A DNA stretch of 64,000 bases from Methanobrevibacter sp. TLL-48-HuF1 (GTDB taxonomy: Archaea > Methanobacteriota > Methanobacteria > Methanobacteriales > Methanobacteriaceae): NCBI RefSeq assembly GCF_023617305.1, contig NZ_CP081485.1, forward strand, positions 1,850,501-1,914,500, written 5' to 3'. The notes beneath the pieces were generated by a model. That model searched no databases and was not told where the DNA came from. It saw nothing but the letters and a program-made list of their open reading frames with translations. Positions 49,464 to 64,000 of this stretch are shown one piece after another. Every line of letters starts with the position of its first letter. Within the stretch, counting starts at the first letter, position 1. A program made the translations under genes and the position numbers.

Positions 49464-49877
49464 ATGATTTTTAAAATTAGAACTAAAGGTCACAAAAATG
49501 TATCTTCCATGCACAGATCCACTTTTGAAATAACTAAAGATCCAGAAATTGGGCCTGCTGCAGACTGTATTGTTGGAGTGGCTATGGATAATTCCATGAA
49601 TGATTTTTCAGATGAGTTTAAAGCTAAAATAGCCAATAAAAACACTAAAATAACTGTTATATTAGATACTGAAAACGGCTATGATGAGATTGTCGGCTTT
49701 GGTCATGAAGATTTGACTTTAACTCATCCGACAGATATTGTCTGCAGAACCAGTGATTATGTCTGTCCCCGTACTTTAATGGTAAATGCAGACAAAGCCT
49801 CCAGAGATCTTGATTTGGATTTAATTGAAGATTTGAAAAATGAAAAAGAAATGGAAGTTACAATTATTCTAGACTGA
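49464..49877 (+). CDS. DUF371 family archaeal protein
   Basis: A 137-aa protein that I recognise as the archaeal DUF371 family from its opening FKIRTKGHKNVSSMHRSTFEIT, the conserved GPAADCIVGV segment (about 32-41) and GFGHEDLTLTHPTDIVCRTSDY (about 73-94). No function has been assigned. It is cytoplasmic, without membrane segment, and conserved polar residues (His 16, Glu, Asp 34, Asp/Arg of the C-terminal half) could form an active or RNA-binding site, which is speculation. It is transcribed alone. Its last 14 bases overlap the convergent ABC ATPase gene. Confidence 0.85.
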   Translation: MIFKIRTKGHKNVSSMHRSTFEITKDPEIGPAADCIVGVAMDNSMNDFSDEFKAKIANKNTKITVILDTENGYDEIVGFGHEDLTLTHPTDIVCRTSDYVCPRTLMVNADKASRDLDLDLIEDLKNEKEMEVTIILD

Positions 49878-50940
49878 TGTTTTTAAGCTGGTCTTTACTT
49901 GCACTTTCAGCTGCTTTAATATAAGCATCACAGACTTTATTTACTTCATCAAAAGCTACAACTTTTCCTTCATTAATCCATAATGCTTTATCACATATGT
50001 TTCTGATTTGTTGAATTGAGTGTGATACAAGTAAAACAGTAGTACCTGAGCCCATTAGTGATTTAAGTTTATCATTACTTTTTTTCTGGAATTTAACATC
50101 TCCGACAGACAGGATTTCATCAATAATTAAAATATCAGGATTTACAACAGTAGCTATTGAGAAACCAAGTTTTGCAAGCATTCCTGAGGAATAGTTTTTA
50201 ACAGGAAAGTTAATAAACTCTTCAAGTTCTGAAAATTCAACAATTTCATTATATTTTGATTTTAAAAATTTTTCAGTATATCCTAAAATAGCACCATTTA
50301 GAAAGATGTTGTCTTTTCCTGAATAGTTATAATCAAAACCGGCACCTAAAGAAAGTAACGGTGCGATTATTCCGTTAGTAGTTACTTCTCCACTGTCACA
50401 GTCATAAACACCAGATACTATTTTAAGTAAAGTACTTTTTCCAGCACCGTTAAAACCGATTACTCCAACTTTTTCTCCCTGGTAGATTTTAAATGAAACA
50501 TTATCAAGAGCTTTGAATTTTCTGCTTTTTTCTTTGTTTCTTTTAATAGTACGTATTACATATTCCTTTAAATTGTCAATTTTATCATTAGATATTTTAA
50601 AACTTAAAGAAACATTTTTAAGTTCAACTGCAACTTTTTCATGATAGTCTGGAATAAATTGTGAAACTAGATTATCAACATCCTGATGTTGTTTTGCAGT
50701 TTCTTTTTCTAATATATTATTATGAATTGGTTCTATGTAATCTGGAACTTCATTATTTTTTGATGGCTGCCAACCATTAGGGTGTAGAGATTTAGGCTGT
50801 TGCATATCATTTGGGATTCTGTTGTAATCATCTTGCAGGTCAAAGATAACTTCTTTTGGTTGTTTTCTCTGATTAAAATTTCTGTTTTGATTGTTGGAAT
50901 CACTATTTATATTATTTTTAAATCTTAAATTCTTTTTCAT
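49864..50940 (-). CDS. ABC exporter ATPase, TagH/Wzt type
   Basis: ATP-binding subunit of a polysaccharide or teichoic-acid-type ABC-2 exporter. ATG 50940 (MKKNLRFK) with TAGGT about 9 bases upstream is preferred over TTG 50949. The ABC domain has Walker A GFNGAGKST (about residue 161), the Q-loop replaced by LGAGFD, as in TagH/Wzt, signature NYSSGMLAKLGF (about 248), Walker B PDILIIDEIL and the switch His VSHSIQQIR. The insertion ALDNVSFKIYQGEKVGVIG is typical of this subfamily. The first 100 residues are an unusual hydrophilic extension rich in Asn, Gln and Pro. No C-terminal carbohydrate-binding domain of the Wzt kind is present. It is co-transcribed with the permease. Confidence 0.92.
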   Translation of the reverse strand: MKKNLRFKNNINSDSNNQNRNFNQRKQPKEVIFDLQDDYNRIPNDMQQPKSLHPNGWQPSKNNEVPDYIEPIHNNILEKETAKQHQDVDNLVSQFIPDYHEKVAVELKNVSLSFKISNDKIDNLKEYVIRTIKRNKEKSRKFKALDNVSFKIYQGEKVGVIGFNGAGKSTLLKIVSGVYDCDSGEVTTNGIIAPLLSLGAGFDYNYSGKDNIFLNGAILGYTEKFLKSKYNEIVEFSELEEFINFPVKNYSSGMLAKLGFSIATVVNPDILIIDEILSVGDVKFQKKSNDKLKSLMGSGTTVLLVSHSIQQIRNICDKALWINEGKVVAFDEVNKVCDAYIKAAESASKDQLKNISLE

Positions 50941-50950
50941 AATAAACAAC

Positions 50951-51739
50951 CTACAATTCTAATGTAATTTTCCTTTGGTATTTTGTAAATATTATAACTC
51001 CGGCAACTAATACAATAAGAGCAAATAAACTGGTATTAATAACACTCATGATATTTGGTAATGTATTATACATTATAATGTCTCTGAATTGATCAATTAG
51101 TAAATACACAGGATTAAGATATAAATATTGTCTTAATGCTTCTGGAATAATCTCTGCAGGATAAAATATAGCGGATGCATACATCAATAATATTGTAAAT
51201 ATGTTGTAAAGGTATTCAATATCTCTAAAGTATGTACATACGATTGATAATATTAATCCGATTCCCACTACCATAACAAAGAGTATTATCATAGGAATAA
51301 TAGCTAATACTGACATTAAGGTTAAATGAAGGCCTGTTAAATACATTACGGCAACAAGTATTATTAATGAAATTATGAAATTGATAAACTCTGAACATAT
51401 TCCTCCAAAAGCAAAGATGTATCTTGGAACGAATATTCTTTTTAAGATACCGCTGTTTCCTTTTATGGAATTCATAGCTATTTTTGTCCCGGCACTAAAA
51501 AAATCAAATAAACATCGACCTGCTAAAAAATAAACCGGATAATTTGCAATATTTCCAGAAAATATTGTTGAAAAAATTGCAGTTAATAAAAGCATAGTTA
51601 ACAATGGGTTTATAAAACTCCATAAGATTCCAAGTATTGAATCTTTGTATTTAGCAGTGAAATTTTTTTTAATTAATTGTTTAAGTAGGAAATGCTCACT
51701 TGTATTTCTTTTAATCATTTCTTTAAACATAACTTCCAC
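50951..51739 (-). CDS. ABC-2 type exporter permease, TagG/Wzm type
   Basis: Membrane subunit (262 aa) that with the following ATPase would move a lipid-linked surface polymer outward. There are six predicted membrane segments (about 33-55, 62-82, 110-135, 142-170, 177-195, 232-252). The N-terminal amphipathic region FLLKQLIKKNFTAKYKDSILGILWSFINPLL is the family signature (KxRYKxSxLGxLWxxLxPL). C-terminal LNPVYLLIDQFRD is also conserved. The start could be GTG 51739 or ATG 51730; neither has a clear ribosome site. It is divergent from the glycosyltransferase/glycerophosphotransferase gene across 69 bases, a classic exporter-plus-synthase layout. Confidence 0.93.
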   Translation of the reverse strand: MEVMFKEMIKRNTSEHFLLKQLIKKNFTAKYKDSILGILWSFINPLLTMLLLTAIFSTIFSGNIANYPVYFLAGRCLFDFFSAGTKIAMNSIKGNSGILKRIFVPRYIFAFGGICSEFINFIISLIILVAVMYLTGLHLTLMSVLAIIPMIILFVMVVGIGLILSIVCTYFRDIEYLYNIFTILLMYASAIFYPAEIIPEALRQYLYLNPVYLLIDQFRDIIMYNTLPNIMSVINTSLFALIVLVAGVIIFTKYQRKITLEL

Positions 51740-51808
51740 ACAAAAATTTATAAATTAGTATCAATATACTAATATTTAATTTAAATATCATTTATAGGTT
51801 ACTGAATC

Positions 51809-54800
51809 ATGTCGAAAGTTAAAGTTTCTGTAATAGTTCCGGTTTTTAATGTTGGAGTTTATTTATCAACATCATTAGATAGTATTTTAAACCAGAGTTT
51901 AGAAGATATTGAAATTATTTGCATTAATGATGGGTCAACTGATGATTCTTTAAAAATTTTAGAAAATTATGCTAAAAAAGATAACCGAATTAAAATAATC
52001 TCTAAAGAAAATGAAGGACAGGGAACTGCACGTAATGTTGGATTGGACAATGCTTGCGGTGAATTTATATCTTTTGTTGATGCAGATGATTTTATAAAAA
52101 AAGACATGCTTGAGAAATTGTATAATAAATCAGTTAATGGAAATTTGGATTTGGTAATGTGTAAGGTTTCTTCTTTTGATAATGAAACACATGTAATTGA
52201 TGATAATTTATGGTATTATTCTCTTAAATGTTTCAGCGGGTTTAAAAAAGAGGTATTTAATAATTTAGATACTAAAGAGTTCACTTCATTAATTTCAGTA
52301 ACTCCTTACAACAAGTTATATCGAAGGTCTTTTGTTGAAAAAAATAATATCAGATTTCCGGAAAAATATATATTTGAAGATGAAGTCTTTTTTTACAATG
52401 TTTATCTTAAAGCTAAAAGGATTTCTTTAATTGATGAAAACTTATATTATTACAGAACAAACAGAAAAGGTTCAACAGTTTCTAAAGGTTTGGATAAAGA
52501 TTATAGTGATATTATTCATATTTTCAGATTAATTTGTGACTTATTAGTTGAAACTAATTATATAAATGTCTATAAAAAACAGGTTTACAACAGATTCATC
52601 CATCTTATTTTATGGAGATTCAGCCAGACAGCTCCAAAATATAGAAAAAATTTCTTTAATCTGATGAAAAAAGAATTTAATGAAATATTAAATGAAAATT
52701 CAAAAGATTTTTCATTAAATGTTGATGAACTGGATTTTAAAATAAAATCAAGAACTTTAAAAGTATTGAATTCCAATAATCTTGAAGAATTTGAAAAATT
52801 GGATTCATATAAGCCATTTTCAGTTATAATGGCATCTTATAATAATGACAAATATCTTGAAGATGCAGTTGAATCTTTAACAGTTCAAAATTTTGGATTC
52901 GAACATAATGTGGAACTTATTATAGTTGATGATGGAAGTAATGATGATTCTTTAAAAATAGCTAAGAAATATCAGAAAAATTATCCTTATAATATTCAGG
53001 TAATCTCTAAAGAAAATGGCGGTCAGGCAAGTGCACGTAATTTAGGATTAGAATATGCTAAGGGAGATTATATAAACTTCCTTGACAGTGATGATAAACT
53101 GTCTCCAAGTACTTTTAAAGCAGTTTATGATTTTTTAGTGAAAAATCCTGCTGCAGATGTTATATCAATACCTATAACTTTTTTTGACAATCAGAAAGGA
53201 GCACATATTCTTAATTATAAATATAAAAACGAAAAAGTAGTTAATCTTTTAGATGAACCTGATTATCCGCAGCTTTCAGCTTCATCAGCTTTTATTAAAA
53301 GGGAAGCTATTGGTAATTTAAGATTTAATACAGGTATTGTTAATTCTGAAGATGCATTATTCATTAATAAAATTCTTATTGATAATCCGAAATTAGGTTT
53401 GGTTAAAAATGCCAATTACTTATATAGAAAACGCTTTGATGAGTCATCTACAATTGATAATTCTCAAAAAAAGAAAGGATTTTTTACAGACAGGTTAAAA
53501 TATTACTTTAAGGAACTTATTGATTATTCAGTTAAAAAATATGGTAAAACTCCAAAGTTTATCCAGTATACTTTACTTTATGATCTTCAATGGATGGTAA
53601 AAGTTGAAGAAATTGAGAATATTTTAACTAAAGAAGAAATTAATGAATTTTGGGAAGTTTTCTTAGATGTCTTATCTTATATTGATGAAGATATTATTAA
53701 AAACTATAAAACTTTAGATAATAATGTTCGCGAGTTTTTATTAACTATCAAACAGTCTGATTTAACTGCCAAAACAATTAATGAATTGCAGCTTAATGAC
53801 CGTTTAGGTATTCACAGATTTTACATTGATATAGTTAATATAAAAAATGGCTTTTTAAACATATCAGGTCTTTTAATGAGTAATTTTAATCCGGACAATA
53901 TTGAAATAGTAGCTAAGTGTGAAAATAAGGAATTTATCTCTAAACGATTTGTTTATCCTACAAGGAAACCATTAAAATTTTTATCAGTTGGGTATAAATT
54001 TCCTTATGATTTTGATTTGGAAATTCCGGTAGATGAAATTAAAGACAAAAAATTAACTATAAATGTTTTAAGTGGAAATGAATCATTTAATCTTCCAATT
54101 ACTTTTGAAAAGCATGCAAGATTATCAACTAGCAGCAATTACTTAATTAAAGACAATAATATTGTGGTTTTTAAAGATAATTCTTTTTATATAACATCAT
54201 ATTCATTTATTAAAATGTTAAAATTGGAGTATAAATGTTTAATGAAAATCTATAATGATAAAGGCCCGTATTATACTTCTGCATTGGCTTTTAGATTAAT
54301 GTATCTTTTTTTATATCCATTTTTAAAAAATAAAAAAATCTGGTTATTTATGGATAGGCGAAATGAGGCTGATGATAATGCTGAACAATTATTTAAGTAT
54401 GCACTATCCAGAAAAGATCATGTTAAAAAATATTTCACGGTTTCAAAGGATAGTAAAGATTATTCCAGATTAACAAACAAATATAAAAATGTTTTACCAT
54501 TTTATTCACTAAAACAAAGATTAATCTATTTATTTGCAGATAAAATAATCTCTTCACATCCTGATGAAAACATTTTAAATCCTTTTTATGCCAAAAATGG
54601 AGATTTATACAGTGGACTGATTACATCAGAGAAATACTTCTTACAGCATGGAGTTACAAAAGATAATATTTCTAAATGGATTAGAAAATATGATAAGGAT
54701 TTATCTTTAATTTTAACAGTTTCTCCTTTAGAAAGAAAGTCCTTTTTAGGTGAAGATTATAATTATTCTCCTGAAATTATTCAAACACTTGGATTTCCAC

Positions 54801-55390
54801 GTTTTGATAATTTGGAAAATAATAATCTCAAAAAACAGATATTAATAATGCCTTCCTGGAGAGAATATTTGCAAAAAAGTGAATTTGCTCTTAAAAATTC
54901 CAAATACTTTAAAGGATTAAATGATTTATTAAATAATGAAGAGTTAATTGGTTATGCTAAAGATAAAGGTTATAAAATAATTTTTAAACCGCATCCAAAT
55001 TTGGCAAATTTTATTCATTTGTTTGATTTAGATAAAAACATTATTGTGGATGATAAAAATACTTATCAGGAACTATTTAATGAGTCAAAATTACTTATAA
55101 CTGATTATTCATCTGTTGCTTTTGATTTTTCATATCTTAAAAAGCCAGTTATATATTATCAATACTCAGATGACTATAACTTTGATTTATCCAAAAGCTA
55201 TTTTGATTATAAAACAATGGGCTTTGGAGAAGTTATTAAAAAAGATGATGATTTAATAAAGTTAATTAAAGATTATTTGGATAATGATTGTGAAATGAAA
55301 GAAGTTTATAAAAAAAGAGTTGACGAGTTCTACAAATACAATGACCAAAATAACTCTAAAAGAGTTTATGACTGGATTTATGAAAATTAA
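51809..55390 (+). CDS. trimodular GT2-GT2-CDP-glycerol glycerophosphotransferase (TagF-like)
   Basis: A 1193-aa fusion of three enzymes. The first GT2 domain (residues 4-230) has VPVFNVG, CINDGSTDDS (about 38) and VDADDF (about 90). The second (about 334-560) has VIMASYNND, IVDDGSNDDS (about 372) and LDSDDK (about 427). The last 350 residues are a CDP-glycerol:poly(glycerophosphate) glycerophosphotransferase domain: WLFMDRRNEADDNAEQLF (about 845), FLQHGV with the conserved His (about 945), IFKPHPN (about 1062) and TDYSSVAFDF (about 1097), all hallmarks of TagF/TagB enzymes. It should add sugars and phosphopolyol units to a surface polymer. The donor (CDP-glycerol, CDP-ribitol or another) cannot be read from the sequence. 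It is divergent from the ABC exporter. Confidence 0.92.
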   Translation: MSKVKVSVIVPVFNVGVYLSTSLDSILNQSLEDIEIICINDGSTDDSLKILENYAKKDNRIKIISKENEGQGTARNVGLDNACGEFISFVDADDFIKKDMLEKLYNKSVNGNLDLVMCKVSSFDNETHVIDDNLWYYSLKCFSGFKKEVFNNLDTKEFTSLISVTPYNKLYRRSFVEKNNIRFPEKYIFEDEVFFYNVYLKAKRISLIDENLYYYRTNRKGSTVSKGLDKDYSDIIHIFRLICDLLVETNYINVYKKQVYNRFIHLILWRFSQTAPKYRKNFFNLMKKEFNEILNENSKDFSLNVDELDFKIKSRTLKVLNSNNLEEFEKLDSYKPFSVIMASYNNDKYLEDAVESLTVQNFGFEHNVELIIVDDGSNDDSLKIAKKYQKNYPYNIQVISKENGGQASARNLGLEYAKGDYINFLDSDDKLSPSTFKAVYDFLVKNPAADVISIPITFFDNQKGAHILNYKYKNEKVVNLLDEPDYPQLSASSAFIKREAIGNLRFNTGIVNSEDALFINKILIDNPKLGLVKNANYLYRKRFDESSTIDNSQKKKGFFTDRLKYYFKELIDYSVKKYGKTPKFIQYTLLYDLQWMVKVEEIENILTKEEINEFWEVFLDVLSYIDEDIIKNYKTLDNNVREFLLTIKQSDLTAKTINELQLNDRLGIHRFYIDIVNIKNGFLNISGLLMSNFNPDNIEIVAKCENKEFISKRFVYPTRKPLKFLSVGYKFPYDFDLEIPVDEIKDKKLTINVLSGNESFNLPITFEKHARLSTSSNYLIKDNNIVVFKDNSFYITSYSFIKMLKLEYKCLMKIYNDKGPYYTSALAFRLMYLFLYPFLKNKKIWLFMDRRNEADDNAEQLFKYALSRKDHVKKYFTVSKDSKDYSRLTNKYKNVLPFYSLKQRLIYLFADKIISSHPDENILNPFYAKNGDLYSGLITSEKYFLQHGVTKDNISKWIRKYDKDLSLILTVSPLERKSFLGEDYNYSPEIIQTLGFPRFDNLENNNLKKQILIMPSWREYLQKSEFALKNSKYFKGLNDLLNNEELIGYAKDKGYKIIFKPHPNLANFIHLFDLDKNIIVDDKNTYQELFNESKLLITDYSSVAFDFSYLKKPVIYYQYSDDYNFDLSKSYFDYKTMGFGEVIKKDDDLIKLIKDYLDNDCEMKEVYKKRVDEFYKYNDQNNSKRVYDWIYEN

Positions 55391-55409: not shown

Positions 55410-56450
55410 ATGACAATTATGAATAATTTATTTGGAAATAAAAAAAAGTTGATTCAGGAAAATAAAGTTCTTAAACAAGAAATAGAAAATTTACATAAAG
55501 AGATTGATTCTCTTAACGATAAATATAACAATCTTAGTAAAATTAGAGCTAATGAACATACTGCAGCTAGCTTTTGTAATTGGTCTTATATAAATTATTA
55601 TTTTAGAGATGATTTTGAGGAAAAATTCAAGAAAATGGTTGAAAATTTACCTAAAGAATCAAAAAACTACTTTAAATGGCTTTTTTTAAGAAGTTTAGCT
55701 ATTAATTATAACAGAAGAGAAACTTTATTTTTTGATGATGAACTGGAAAAACAAAAACAGTGGACAGATTTTAAAATAAATAATGTATCTGAGGATAAAA
55801 TAGGAAAATATAACTTTAAAGGCGGATATAATCTTCATGGATTTATAGATTTAAATTTAAGTAAAGAAGATAAGAATTTTCTTGAAAATAAAGATATAAT
55901 TGATGCAGGAGCATTTACTGGAGATACTGCAATTCCATTATCTGAAGTTACTCATAAAAATGTTTTTGCTTTTGAACCATTTGAAGAGTCTTTTAAATTA
56001 TTAAAAGAAAATGTTGAAATAAATAATATTTCAAATATAAAACCTGTAAACAAATCTTTAGGAAATATTAATGGTGAGCGAAGTTTATATTTAGCTAATG
56101 ATAATTTTCAGGGGATTACATCTGATTCTAACTTAAGAAAATATACAGAAGAGCTAAAAGTTCAAGAGGTGACTGTTGATCAATTTGTCAAGGAAAATAA
56201 CTTGGATGTTGGTTTGATTACTATTGATGTTGAAGGAGCGGAAAAGGATCTTTTAAATGGAGCTATTGAAACAATAAAAAGCCAAAAACCAATGCTGTTT
56301 ATTAGTATGTATCATAGTGTTGAAGATTTCTTTGAAATAAAACCTTGGATTGAGAATTTAGATCTAGGTTATAAATTTGAGATTATTAAAGAACAGCCCT
56401 GGACATTTATTGCGGATACTATTTTAAAATGCAAAATAATTAATGATTGA
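55410..56450 (+). CDS. FkbM-family methyltransferase with N-terminal coiled coil
   Basis: A 346-aa S-adenosylmethionine-dependent methyltransferase of the FkbM type, commonly acting on sugars of surface glycans. Residues about 10-45 form a coiled coil (KVLKQEIENLHKEIDSLNDK). The Rossmann core begins DIIDAGAFTGDTAIPL (SAM-binding, about 163), with FAFEPFEESFKLLKENV and LITIDVEGAEKDLL (about 270), the family motif, followed by MLFISMYHSVEDF. ATG 55410 or, 9 bases on, ATG 55419 may be the start. It follows the trimodular gene by 19 bases and is likely in the same transcript. The coiled coil might tether it to that enzyme or to the polymerising complex (inference). Confidence 0.88.
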   Translation: MTIMNNLFGNKKKLIQENKVLKQEIENLHKEIDSLNDKYNNLSKIRANEHTAASFCNWSYINYYFRDDFEEKFKKMVENLPKESKNYFKWLFLRSLAINYNRRETLFFDDELEKQKQWTDFKINNVSEDKIGKYNFKGGYNLHGFIDLNLSKEDKNFLENKDIIDAGAFTGDTAIPLSEVTHKNVFAFEPFEESFKLLKENVEINNISNIKPVNKSLGNINGERSLYLANDNFQGITSDSNLRKYTEELKVQEVTVDQFVKENNLDVGLITIDVEGAEKDLLNGAIETIKSQKPMLFISMYHSVEDFFEIKPWIENLDLGYKFEIIKEQPWTFIADTILKCKIIND

Positions 56451-59083: not shown

Positions 59084-60325
59084 ATGAAAATTTGTATTAT
59101 TGGACAAGGCTACATCGGATTGCCAACAGCTGCACTTTTTACTAAAAATCATTGCGAAGTTGTTGGAGTAGATGTTAATGAAAAGGTTGTTGAAACTTTA
59201 AATCAGGGAAAAATTCATATTGAAGAACCTGGAATTGGTGAAATAATTAAAAAAGCTGTTGAAAAAGGCGTATATTCTGCTTCAACAACACCTGTAAAAG
59301 CTGATGCATTTATAATAACTGTGCCAACACCATACATTGCTGAAAATTACACATGTGATTTAAGTTATGTTATCAGTGCATGTGAATCCATACTTCCTTA
59401 TTTGGAAAAAGGAAATACTGTAATTGTTGAATCTACAATAGCTCCAATGTCTATGGATGATTATGTTAAACCTATTTTTGAAAAAGCCGGTTACACAATA
59501 GGAAAAGACTTATACCTTGCCCATTGCCCTGAGAGAGTCCTTCCAGGAAAAATCATGTATGAATTAGTACATAATGATCGTATTGTAGGTGGAATAACCC
59601 CTGAATGCTCAATTAAAGCCAGTGAAGTTTATGGTCAGTTTGTTGAAGGTGCATTAATGAAAACAGAAGCAAAAACTGCAGAATTATCCAAATGTATGGA
59701 AAATACTTTTAGAGACGTTAACATTGCACTAGCTAATGAACTTACAAAAATATGTACTAAAATAGGAGTAAATGCATTGGATGTAATTGAAATGGCAAAT
59801 AAACATCCAAGAGTAAACCTGCACTCACCAGGACCTGGAGTTGGAGGACACTGCCTAGCTATTGACCCTTATTTCATTTATTCAAAAGCACCGGAATATG
59901 CAAAAATAATAAAACTAGCCAGAGACACCAACAACTCAATGCCCGAATTTGTATATGAAAATGTTAAAAAAATAACACCAAATGGCAAAATAGCAGTTTT
60001 AGGAGTTGCATATAAAGGAAACACTGGTGATGACAGGGAAAGTCCGGCATATGAGATAATAGCTAAATTAAAAGAAGACAACTATGAAATAAGCATCTGT
60101 GATCCCCATGTAGCCAATGAAGAATATGTTGATTTAAACCAAGCCACCAAAAATGCGAGCCTTGTTTTAATTTTATGCGACCATGATGAGTTTAAAGACC
60201 TTGATTACGATTTAATCAAAGAAAACATGAAAAATCCAATTATATTTGACACCAAAAATATAATAAAAGAAGTACCTGAAGATATTAAGCTTTACAATTA
60301 TGGAAACTTATATAATATTTTTTGA
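59084..60325 (+). CDS. wecC: UDP-N-acetyl-D-mannosamine dehydrogenase family (WecC-like)
   Basis: A 413-aa NAD-dependent UDP-sugar 6-dehydrogenase, oxidising a UDP-HexNAc (by homology UDP-ManNAc) to the uronic acid. The N-terminal Rossmann motif GQGYIGLPTA (residues 6-15), VPTPY, LAHCPERVLPGK (about 145-156), the helix TAELSKCMENTFRDVNIAL, the catalytic Cys at about 257 in GVGGHCLAIDPYFI, and the C-terminal domain with LGVAYKGNTGDDRESP are all present. The CPER.LPG and TAEL..CMEN variants favour WecC over UDP-glucose dehydrogenase. Third codon positions carry visibly more C than the flanking glycosyltransferases, so it may have a different history. GGAGG at 59073-59077 is its ribosome site. 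No WecB epimerase gene is in the window. Confidence 0.92.
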   Translation: MKICIIGQGYIGLPTAALFTKNHCEVVGVDVNEKVVETLNQGKIHIEEPGIGEIIKKAVEKGVYSASTTPVKADAFIITVPTPYIAENYTCDLSYVISACESILPYLEKGNTVIVESTIAPMSMDDYVKPIFEKAGYTIGKDLYLAHCPERVLPGKIMYELVHNDRIVGGITPECSIKASEVYGQFVEGALMKTEAKTAELSKCMENTFRDVNIALANELTKICTKIGVNALDVIEMANKHPRVNLHSPGPGVGGHCLAIDPYFIYSKAPEYAKIIKLARDTNNSMPEFVYENVKKITPNGKIAVLGVAYKGNTGDDRESPAYEIIAKLKEDNYEISICDPHVANEEYVDLNQATKNASLVLILCDHDEFKDLDYDLIKENMKNPIIFDTKNIIKEVPEDIKLYNYGNLYNIF

Positions 60326-62916
60326 TTGAGTTGAAAAAAATGAAATATAAAGTTAGTATTATAATTCCTGTATATAATGTTGAATTGTATTTAGAAAAAT
60401 GTTTATTTTCTTTATTTGCTCAGTCATTAGGATTTGAAAATTTAGAGATTATATTGGTTGATGATTGTTCTACAGATAGAAGTAAACAGATTATTAGTGC
60501 TTATGATAATGTTTATGAAAATATTAAAGGAGTATTTTTGAATAAAAATTCTGGTGTTGCAGGTAAACCACGTAATGTAGGTATGGAATATGCAACATCT
60601 GATTATTTAATTTTTTTAGATCCTGATGATGTTCTTAAAGAAGATGCTTGTGAAATTCTTTTTAATAAAATTGAGGATGAAAATGCAGATATTGTTACTG
60701 GTGTGCATTCTATAATTGATAATGATGATGAAGTAATTTTTCCAGGTTTATTAATAAACTCTTTTACTAATCCTCTTGATACTTGGAAAGATAGACAACG
60801 AGATTTTGATAATGTTTTTAGGGATGAGATGAAATTTTCATCAATTAAAGATATGGAATATTTTTTAGGAAATTTTGGGTTGTCTAGTAAAATTTTTAGA
60901 AGGAAATTTATAGAAAAACATACTATTAAGTTTCCAGAATATATTCCTGGTGAAGATTCTGTTTTTTTATTTAATTCATTAATTAATGCTAGGGGTATTG
61001 TTTTTTTAAATAAAATTATTTATGTTTATAATAACTCTCGTAATGATGAAAATAATAATTCTTTAAGTTTTCAAAAAGACTTAAAACGAAATCTTGGTCG
61101 ATTGGATGCTTATTTAATCATGTTAAATATTAGTAAGGAAAAAGATATGTTATATCCTTTTGTTCAATATCTTTTAAAATCTAAATTAGTCTATTTTACA
61201 AACAATTTTTTAGTAGGTAATGATTTAAGTTATGATGAGATGCTTGAAATTTTAAAAAAAGCACAGCCTCTTTTTAGTGAATCTTATGATTTTGATGTTA
61301 ATGTAACTAATTTCAAATTATTATTTGATTTACTAAATATTAAAAAATATGATGAAGCAATTAAATATATTTCTTCAATTAAAAAGAGCGATAATTCTAT
61401 AAATAATATTTCTAAAGTTAATAAAAGATTAAAACAGAAAAATATTAAGGTTGCTTTAATCATGGATGCTTTCACATATAATTCGTATAAAGATGAATTT
61501 ATTCCAATTATTTTAGAGCCTCATAATTGGTTAGAATCTTTTGAAAAAAATCAACCAGATATATTTTTCTGTGAATCTGCTTATCATGGATTTTTTAAAG
61601 ATGAAATGGTTGATGGAATAGCGGTTGAAAGTAAACATGATGGGCCTTGGTTTAAAAAAATCGGTGTTAATTATAATACTAAAAAAGAGTTTAGAAATGA
61701 ACTTTTTAAAATATTAGATTATTGTAATAAACATAATATTCCTACTGTTTTTTGGAATAAAGAGGACCCTACATCTTTCAATAATCAAGATTATAATTTT
61801 ATTGATACTGCATTAAGGTTTGATTATATTTTCACAACATCTGAAGAGTGTATTTCTAAATATAATTCTAGGGGACATTATAATGTTTATCCATTGATGT
61901 TTGCATCTAATCTAAAATTATTTAATCCGATTCATAATGAAACTAGAAAAGATGATTTGATTGTATTTGCAGGTAGTTGGTATAAGCAATTTGAAGAAAG
62001 ATGCAATGTAATGGTCGATTTTTTTGATAAAATATTGGAAAGTAATTTTGATTTAAAAATTTATGATAGAGCTTATGGAAAAAATTGGTCTAATAGAATT
62101 TTTCCAAGGAAATATACTAACTATATATATCCTGCAGTTCCATTTAATAAAATGTCTGAAGTGTATAAGGAAAGTAAATTTGGGTTAAATATTAATACTG
62201 TTGTAGATTCTTATACTATGTTTGCAAGGAGAATATTTGAATTAATGTCATCAAATACCTTTGTTATTTCAAATTTTTCTAAAGGGATTTATGATATTTT
62301 TAAAAATAATGTTATTTATTTAGATAAATTGGATAAATTGGATTTTAATAATTTAGATATAGATAATATTATTGAAGATAATTTATATAATGTTTTGGAG
62401 AATCATAATTATACTAAACGTTTCCAATATATATTAGATTCAATAAACTTTGATTATCAAAAGGAATATGCCAATGTTACAATCTTTTATAATTTAACAA
62501 AGAGTACTAAAATTGAAGATATTAAGAAACATTTTAGTTCAATTCAATATCCATTTAAAAATTTAATTGTTGTAATTGATAATGAAAGAGGTAATAGGAA
62601 TATTTACAATAAACTTGAAAAAGAAGATATTTTATTTATTCTAAAAAAAGATTTATTAAGTTTAAAAGATGATTTTAATGATAATGATTTTTTTATTTTT
62701 GCAGATGTTTCTGTTAATAAGGATTTTATAAAAAAATCATTATTACATTATCAGTATTTATCTAAAAATTTTGGAATTAGGTTTGATGAATATGATAAAT
62801 TCATGTTTAGTACTACTAATACTTTGGATAATGTTATATTTAATGGTAATTTATTTGAAAATGTAATTGGCCAGTATTTGAATGATGATTTATTGGTTGA
62901 TATTTATCTTATTTAA
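60322..62916 (+). CDS. GT2-CgeB-like fused glycosyltransferase
   Basis: Up to 864 aa. The frame starts at TTG 60322, overlapping the wecC stop, but ATG 60340 (MKYKVSI) fits the GT2 opening better. Residues about 7-330 are a GT2 domain (VSIIIPVYNVELYLEKC, LVDDCSTDRS, FLDPDD, PGEDSVFLFNSL). Residues about 370-690 match CgeB-like/GT4 transferases: ALIMDAFTYNSYKDEF, FWNKEDPTSF (about 472), FAGSWYKQFEER, IYDRAYGKNWSNR and the C-terminal NINTVVDSYTMFARRIFELM. The final 150 residues look like a second GT2-type Rossmann half (VTIFYNLTK, LIVVIDNERG, FFIFADVSV) without a clear DxD. It probably adds two sugars in sequence to a polymer or protein. Confidence 0.85.
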   Translation: MIELKKMKYKVSIIIPVYNVELYLEKCLFSLFAQSLGFENLEIILVDDCSTDRSKQIISAYDNVYENIKGVFLNKNSGVAGKPRNVGMEYATSDYLIFLDPDDVLKEDACEILFNKIEDENADIVTGVHSIIDNDDEVIFPGLLINSFTNPLDTWKDRQRDFDNVFRDEMKFSSIKDMEYFLGNFGLSSKIFRRKFIEKHTIKFPEYIPGEDSVFLFNSLINARGIVFLNKIIYVYNNSRNDENNNSLSFQKDLKRNLGRLDAYLIMLNISKEKDMLYPFVQYLLKSKLVYFTNNFLVGNDLSYDEMLEILKKAQPLFSESYDFDVNVTNFKLLFDLLNIKKYDEAIKYISSIKKSDNSINNISKVNKRLKQKNIKVALIMDAFTYNSYKDEFIPIILEPHNWLESFEKNQPDIFFCESAYHGFFKDEMVDGIAVESKHDGPWFKKIGVNYNTKKEFRNELFKILDYCNKHNIPTVFWNKEDPTSFNNQDYNFIDTALRFDYIFTTSEECISKYNSRGHYNVYPLMFASNLKLFNPIHNETRKDDLIVFAGSWYKQFEERCNVMVDFFDKILESNFDLKIYDRAYGKNWSNRIFPRKYTNYIYPAVPFNKMSEVYKESKFGLNINTVVDSYTMFARRIFELMSSNTFVISNFSKGIYDIFKNNVIYLDKLDKLDFNNLDIDNIIEDNLYNVLENHNYTKRFQYILDSINFDYQKEYANVTIFYNLTKSTKIEDIKKHFSSIQYPFKNLIVVIDNERGNRNIYNKLEKEDILFILKKDLLSLKDDFNDNDFFIFADVSVNKDFIKKSLLHYQYLSKNFGIRFDEYDKFMFSTTNTLDNVIFNGNLFENVIGQYLNDDLLVDIYLI

Positions 62917-62952
62917 TAAATATTTGTTGTGTTATGATTATATTTGCTAAAG

Positions 62953-64000
62953 GTGATTAAAATTAATAAAAATAATATTAAAATTTCAATTGTTATCCCT
63001 ATTTATGATAATAATAATTATGTTAAAGATTGTCTGCATAGTTTGTTAAATCAAACATTAAAACAAATTGAAATTGTTTGTATAAATTATTGTTCTGATG
63101 ATTGGCTAAAATATTTTGCTGGTAAAAATGAACATTTTCAAGTATTTTCTAAAAAAAAGTCTGAAAATATAATAAATATTATTAATGGTGAGTATGTAAC
63201 ATTTATTAATCAAGAGGATTTTTTCATGTTTATTACTTTTGATGCATTATATGATTATGTTTGCATTAATAAATGTGATATGCTTTTTTATCCATCAGGA
63301 ATTATAACTGAAAATAAAGAAATTTTGCACGATGAATATTTTGAGTATTCTTTATTAAATTCACATAAAAATCAAAAAGATTTTATGGATTATTTGTTTT
63401 TTAGTTCTCATGAGATTACTAATATTTTATATAATGTTTCTTTTTTAAAAAAGTTGAATTTATCATTTCCAACGGATATAAGTTTTGATAATGTATATTT
63501 CTTTTTTAAAACTTTTTTGAGTTCAAATAGTATTGGTTTTTTTGATAGTATAATGGCATTTAAACGAAAAGAAATGCAACCATATTATATTAAAGAAGAT
63601 ATAAAAAAAGAGGAATATCCTATTTTTGGTAACGATTTTTGCAATTATTTTTTTATAAATAATTATGATTTTTCAAAAATTGTATTTAATAAAAGTTATT
63701 TTGATACACTTATTAATATTATTAATTTATTTGACAATTTGTTTTTGTTTAATGTTGTTTCAAGAAATTTACTTAATTATATTTGTTGTTTTGTTAAAAA
63801 AAGTTATATTTGTGCCGAAAATAAAAATATAATTTTTAATTTAATTAAACATTTTTTTGATGAAATTAATAATAAACATTATATGGATTTTATTCTAAAT
63901 TTAGATGTGGAAAATCTAATTTTTTATAGAATGATATTAAAATCCCAAACGAATGGAGAATTTATTTTAAATTATAAAATTCGTGAAGTTAAAATGGATA
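62953..64000 (+). CDS. degenerate GT2-like protein (3' end beyond window)
   Basis: I read this frame by hand: it begins at GTG 62953 (VIKINKNNIKISIVIPIYD), with AAAGGTGA overlapping the start, and stays open for 349 codons to the window edge. The first 100 residues follow the GT2 pattern strand by strand (SIVIPIYDNNNYVKDCLHSL, LKQIEIVCINYCSDDW, NGEYVTFINQEDFFMFI), but the nucleotide-sugar DDGS is replaced by NYCS, the GGARN loop is gone, and the DxD metal site reads NQED. It looks like a catalytically dead relative that may serve as a scaffold or regulator, or a pseudogene that has not yet lost its frame. Very A/T-rich. More domains may lie outside the window. Confidence 0.8.
   Translation, partial: MIKINKNNIKISIVIPIYDNNNYVKDCLHSLLNQTLKQIEIVCINYCSDDWLKYFAGKNEHFQVFSKKKSENIINIINGEYVTFINQEDFFMFITFDALYDYVCINKCDMLFYPSGIITENKEILHDEYFEYSLLNSHKNQKDFMDYLFFSSHEITNILYNVSFLKKLNLSFPTDISFDNVYFFFKTFLSSNSIGFFDSIMAFKRKEMQPYYIKEDIKKEEYPIFGNDFCNYFFINNYDFSKIVFNKSYFDTLINIINLFDNLFLFNVVSRNLLNYICCFVKKSYICAENKNIIFNLIKHFFDEINNKHYMDFILNLDVENLIFYRMILKSQTNGEFILNYKIREVKMD

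Follow-up and report, generated by a model that had tools for sequence, protein, structure and literature searches.

Introduction

In the accessory Sec system the inactive glycosyltransferase homologue GtfB serves as an acceptor-binding chaperone for the GT4 enzyme GtfA, with which it glycosylates a protein (PMC12809243). In ABC-dependent O-antigen synthesis a coiled-coil protein is both ruler and membrane scaffold (PMC11231755). The protein analysed here, from Methanobrevibacter sp. TLL-48-HuF1, resembles GtfB in being a dead glycosyltransferase homologue paired with an active partner, which is encoded beside it and with which it would form a putative complex. It differs in being GT-A/GT2-like, in carrying a coiled coil and in belonging to a polymer locus. 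With the WbdD/WbbB type it shares a head followed by a long coiled coil and a locus with an ABC-2 exporter; two orthologues also have a putative membrane segment in the tail. The heads of the WbdD/WbbB type are a kinase/methyltransferase or a terminating glycosyltransferase, whereas the head here is a dead GT-A domain.

The window, that is, the whole stretch of DNA analysed (64,000 nucleotides), corresponds to positions 1,850,501-1,914,500 of a single-contig genome of 1,951,395 bases, and the contig continues rightward past it. Little is known about how gut methanogens make their cell-surface polymers. A literature search on glycosyltransferases described as pseudo, inactive or degenerate, and on those of Methanobrevibacter, showed no such protein in the titles and abstract beginnings covered, most subscription journals lying outside its scope.

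Results and Discussion

The gene and its reading frame

Genomes are labelled G and loci L; the four orthologues discussed below are the window copy (G000) and those of G001, G122 and G121. Positions in L004 equal window positions minus 56500.

62944..64000, continuing to window-equivalent 64443 (L004:6444-7943), + strand: pseudo-glycosyltransferase gene, 352 of its 499 codons lying in the window

The frame is open from a TTG at 62944 to the end of the window (352 codons), and a GTG at 62953 in the same frame leaves 349 codons, the length that an earlier sequence-only reading had given as a minimum. The right-hand continuation bears this out, with the frame running unbroken through 499 codons to a normal TAA stop at L004:7941-7943 (window-equivalent 64441-64443), 443 bases beyond the window. 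That reading had named a frame break just beyond the window, or an intact second catalytic domain downstream, as observations that would speak against a maintained pseudoenzyme. Since the ORF ends after 499 codons and only a coiled-coil tail lies downstream, neither is present; no catalytic domain was found in the downstream part of the ORF by inspection of the continuation and by Pfam.

In three orthologues an ATT stands in frame about 4-8 nt after a GGTG-type stretch resembling a ribosome-binding site (window 62944-62967; L239:9400-9415; L037:3927-3914, - strand). ATG, GTG and TTG are absent from the usual spacing in these three, and in G122 none occurs within the first 42 codons. Translation might begin at this non-canonical ATT, although ATT is common in such AT-rich DNA.

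A GT-A head without its catalytic motifs

62977..63333, + strand: GT-A (GT2-like) core, residues 12-130, from Pfam, alignments and the structure model
63085-63096, + strand: NYCS at the nucleotide-binding Asp site, residues 48-51
63148-63195, + strand: SKKKSENIINIINGEY in place of the GGARN loop, residues 69-84
63208-63219, + strand: NQED at the DxD site, residues 89-92
63487..63492, + strand: ED motif changed to DN, residues 182-183, with Asp replaced by Asn at 183

A GT2-like GT-A fold spans the first 212 residues. PF00535 matched residues 15-117 with 32.9 bits against a curated cut-off of 23.3 (E 7.8e-8); of the 25 Pfam families listed, it alone exceeded its cut-off. Among the orthologues, PF00535 scores in the copies of G000 and G122 and misses those of G001 and G121 at E limits of 0.001 and 1. 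A structure model built with relatives from the window and viral contigs only (mean pLDDT 64.3, pTM 0.65) is confident over residues 11-130, where block pLDDT is 73-95, and of low confidence in the helical part, with block values of 29-58 from residue 211. Its best PDB matches were RmlT, CgT, TarS and TarP, with Z of 20-21.6 from VIA-align, which re-ranked Foldseek's own matches, and 17-23% identity over the aligned part. The GT2 likeness seen earlier is thus supported by both fold and Pfam score, and the structure prediction that had been called for gives a confident GT-A core with teichoic-acid-type transferases ranking first. These GT2-type proteins share with the window protein the GT-A core fold and the order of its elements; they themselves are enzymes. 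GtfB has a GT-B fold. We considered the window protein as a GtfB homologue and rejected this on its GT-A fold and GT2-like sequence.

The nucleotide-binding Asp, the GGARN or acceptor loop, the DxD and the ED motif all have catalytic roles in glycosyltransferases of this kind. The sequence-only reading had reported that DDGS has become NYCS, that the GGARN loop is missing and that DxD has become NQED, and alignments bear out all three; the change of the ED-motif Asp to Asn183 is a further loss. When the window protein was aligned with GT2 proteins from the window and viral contigs (16 rows), the nucleotide Asp, both DxD Asp residues and the ED Asp were kept in 15/15 of the others, while the window protein had Y49, N89/E91 and N183 at these positions and no GGARN loop. 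In a wider alignment of 58 intact relatives, made up of rows not labelled degenerate and not chosen on the ED motif, the ED Asp was present in 57 with one gap; DDGS and DxD were present in 58/58 of this set, nearly all rows of which had been selected for those two motifs.

The same losses recur in the orthologues. The DxD is broken, the ED-motif Asp lost and the loop missing in 4/4, and the nucleotide Asp is lost in three, the G122 copy retaining it.

Orthologues and gene neighbourhood

60322..62916, + strand: operon partner of 864 aa, in which an intact GT2 domain precedes a Glyco_trans_1_2 domain, 27 bases upstream of the pseudo-glycosyltransferase gene
59084..60325, + strand: UDP-sugar dehydrogenase (UDPG_MGDP_dh), a neighbour in all four orthologous loci
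49864..51739, - strand: ATPase and membrane protein of an ABC-2 type exporter, a gene pair in the same surface-polymer locus

A search with the C-terminal part across 150 genomes of the order returned the four orthologues at E values of 5e-81 to 4e-70, the next match standing at 8e-13. The degenerate copy in G001 had come from a search of the genus, that in G122, a member of another genus, from a search of the family, and that in G121 from a search with the neighbouring gene; the full-length profile missed G121 because much of its core is deleted. A phylum search (151 genomes) added no orthologue. Neither did a search of genome contigs with a two-row alignment, which returned two bacterial GT2 loci only, and no orthologue was found in viral contigs. 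The next-best loci from the order and phylum searches were rejected as orthologues, since all seven that were read, out of nine, keep the motifs; the best genus match after G001, in G024 (L008), is likewise an intact GT2. In a 68-row tree that included three of the orthologues and for which the program warned of long branches, the G000, G001 and G122 copies formed one clade (SH-aLRT 99) and grouped pairwise when each in turn was omitted (97-99). Motif loss is therefore most simply older than the split of these three copies.

The pseudo-glycosyltransferase gene lies directly after the Glyco_trans_1_2 gene, at a distance of at most 27 nt, in 4/4 orthologues, and the UDP-sugar dehydrogenase stands beside the gene pair in each. 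By Pfam, the partner carries an N-terminal GT2 domain in three of these loci and lacks it in G121. Of 138 family genomes, 3 have a full-length match to the partner (at least 842 of its 864 residues), and all three carry the pseudo-glycosyltransferase. Twelve further family genomes have a Glyco_trans_1_2 relative (E at most 1e-95); G121 alone among them has the pseudo-glycosyltransferase, and since it is absent from the other 11, the Glyco_trans_1_2 kind of enzyme does not generally need it. Beta-repeat proteins, considered as a general neighbour of Glyco_trans_1_2, were found in only 2/18 loci.

Maintained or decaying

With losses and neighbourhood common to four orthologues, the earlier suggestion of a maintained pseudoenzyme is well supported. 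One alternative is slow decay, in which a duplicated GT2 beside Glyco_trans_1_2 is no longer functional and is gradually being lost. In some other genomes (L094, L093) the immediate neighbour of Glyco_trans_1_2 is indeed an intact GT2 gene; here, all the core motifs are gone, the core of the G121 copy is largely deleted, and between G000 and G001 the pseudo-glycosyltransferase is 31.5% identical as compared with 53.5% and 76.6% for its two neighbours, so that it evolves faster than both. However, none of the four copies contains a stop, at pairwise identities of 23-39%, whereas neutral drift predicts tens: in simulations at 33% nucleotide divergence (n=200) a mean of 34.6 stops arose in 499 codons, with a minimum of 22.

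The distribution of conservation along the protein also bears on this question. Among 1,540 pairs of intact GT2 proteins, identity in the core exceeded that in the C-terminal part by a mean of 0.24 (sd 0.08), and the difference never fell below +0.06 in the 1,268 pairs with C-terminal identity under 0.36. The six pseudo-glycosyltransferase pairs gave -0.02, +0.04, -0.08, +0.05, -0.08 and -0.01, with C-terminal identities of 0.26-0.32 against an intact mean of 0.30. Constraint has shifted from the GT-A core to the rest of the protein. The C-terminal module is thus conserved about as well as in intact GT2 proteins, the shared loss most simply predates the split of two genera and the tight gene order has been retained, all of which argue against decay, an explanation we consider unlikely.

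Neutral dN/dS had been put forward as a sign of simple decay. NG86 estimates, made between species and genera because the set holds one genome per species, and not decisive since dS is near saturation, were 0.60-0.84 for the pseudo-glycosyltransferase, as against 0.30-0.42 for the partner and 0.10-0.26 for the dehydrogenase. The values are below 1, in keeping with constraint, but that constraint is weaker than on the neighbours, and relaxed constraint would fit such high values as well as a new function would.

It might instead be supposed that the protein remains catalytic, as a divergent GT-A transferase that handles donor and metal with different residues. Not every glycosyltransferase family has a canonical DxD, the window copy still has E91 and D92, and D92 is retained in 3/4 orthologues. 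The remaining acidic residues nevertheless vary among the four, position 91 being E, K, K and Q and the ED-motif position N, Q, I and N; the loop is missing from all of them and the excess conservation of the core has been lost. We regard residual catalysis of this kind as very unlikely. Taken together, the sequence evidence makes it highly probable that the window protein is non-catalytic and maintained.

The helical module and the tail

63580..63978, + strand: C-terminal helical module, residues 213-345, with NDF and LNL..N..FYR signatures kept in four orthologues
63979..64000, + strand: first part of a coiled coil that covers residues 346 to about 490 and continues at L004:7479-7913
L004:7626-7783: 42-bp repeats, 3.8 copies, 96% alike, in frame within the coiled coil

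The coiled coil shows a period-3.5 power of 4.29 over residues 346-480, a value that none of 10,000 shuffles reached, and contains nine consecutive heptads of the form YxxI, YxxL, YxxF or similar. The length of the tail varies among the orthologues, as does its nature. The G001 and G122 copies end in an SxSW motif with a strongly hydrophobic stretch (19-residue means of 3.2 and 3.7). The window copy is without a transmembrane segment and has a basic C-terminal end, SSWKKLINKFKS, which resembles the part preceding the hydrophobic stretch of those two copies. In the G121 copy the coiled coil is replaced by four repeats, each about 130 residues long and read from sequence as beta. Neither type of tail is therefore universal.

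Such a tail invites comparison with a molecular ruler, in which the dead head at the far end of the coiled coil would cap or sense the end of the polymer and set chain length as in the WbdD type. In-frame 42-bp repeats and differing tail lengths would suit a ruler, as would the ABC-2 exporter in the locus, the SxSW and putative transmembrane stretch of two orthologues and the ruler and scaffold precedent from ABC-dependent O-antigen systems (PMC11231755). The head, however, contains no terminating enzyme, PF00535 being alone above its cut-off among the 25 families listed; the G121 copy is without a coiled coil, and the orientation and membrane association of the window protein are hypothetical. 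A ruler is thus rather unlikely.

Other degenerate GT2 domains

A survey of 1.68 Mb in 162 fetched sequences, which overlap in part and exclude two bacterial loci, found 275 full-span GT2-like domains, of which, by the motif criteria used, 230 keep all three motifs and 25 are without two or three. Ten of these 25 belong to a subtype with DAGS or DANS followed by ETDD or ESDD, which we take to be active. Besides that of the window, degenerate domains occur in G001, G037, G041, G046, G057 and G059, and G009 has more than one. At least five changes of the degenerate label are required on the 68-row tree, which, with the caveat of long branches, does not favour one common origin for all these domains. 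Several are joined to other domains:

L239:15278-18025 (G122), - strand: degenerate GT2 fused through a coiled coil to an intact GT2
L090:6805-9372 (G057), - strand: degenerate GT2 fused through a coiled coil to an intact GT2
L124:7914-9629 (G041), - strand: degenerate GT2 fused directly to an intact GT2
L090:10981-13278, - strand: Glyco_trans_1_2-like protein whose own N-terminal GT2 is degenerate
L103:15235-18390, - strand: Glyco_trans_1_2-like protein whose own N-terminal GT2 is degenerate

By the usual logic of gene fusion, the joining of degenerate to intact GT2 domains suggests that dead and live GT2 domains work side by side, and this is the best argument for such an arrangement.

Proposed role

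Since the catalytic residues have been lost and yet the gene has been kept, it is suggested that the protein aids or holds together surface-polymer machinery. We propose that it is probably a non-catalytic GT2-type pseudoenzyme acting as a subunit or scaffold of a surface-polymer synthesis complex in Methanobacteriaceae. That it scaffolds the polymer machinery, as the sequence-only reading had suggested, seems the best interpretation of the coiled coil, the operon partner and the fusions of dead to intact GT2 domains elsewhere. In the proposed complex, the dead GT-A head and the helical module would bind the partner glycosyltransferase, perhaps through the helical module, without transferring sugar themselves, and might also hold the growing polymer. 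The coiled coil would oligomerise and place the complex at the membrane, by analogy with O-antigen systems that use ABC exporters. By the features tested, the window protein belongs to neither the GtfB nor the WbdD-type family.

More speculatively, Methanobacteriaceae may repeatedly turn GT2 proteins into dead, often coiled-coil-linked modules of polymer synthases, with the window protein as a stand-alone form that holds the polymer end beside Glyco_trans_1_2 and sets its length without catalysis through a coiled coil tunable by its repeats; we offer this broader idea with considerable doubt. Conserved though dead, and linked to a single partner gene, such a glycosyltransferase provides a handle on how the synthesis complex is assembled, and the known set of non-catalytic glycosyltransferase subunits would gain archaeal GT-A members. 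Labelling such genes as glycosyltransferase family 2 would overcount polymer linkages.

Further observations on the loci

The locus differs between close species, in that G006 encodes a relative very close to the GT2-GT2-Glyphos_transf protein at window 51806-55387 and is without the pseudo-glycosyltransferase and its partner. In the G001 locus a GT2-Glyphos_transf gene (L037:14510-17150, - strand) is apparently split by a frame break, and an ORF read from its sequence as transposase-like lies near the contig end (L037:289-807, - strand).

A second related pair of degenerate GT2 proteins, in G009 and G059 (L064:2574-3560; L140:5947-6954, - strand), is 49% identical and grouped with SH-aLRT 100; each directly follows a GT2 gene with motifs. 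The stand-alone degenerate GT2 of G037 (L096:2341-3951) has a long coiled coil of near-identical repeats and in the tree lies apart from the window protein. The fetched loci also contain a repeat domain, about 130 residues long and with no Pfam match above cut-off, which was seen in 22 separate ORFs (for example L245:6795-9458, L245:12714-13712 and L090:9547-10821), sometimes together with a GT2 in one ORF. Ends resembling coiled coils are also found on FkbM methyltransferases and a DUF6270 protein (window 55410-56450; L037:1123-2502, - strand; L004:8643-9599), as if many parts of the machinery encoded in these loci were zipped together by them.
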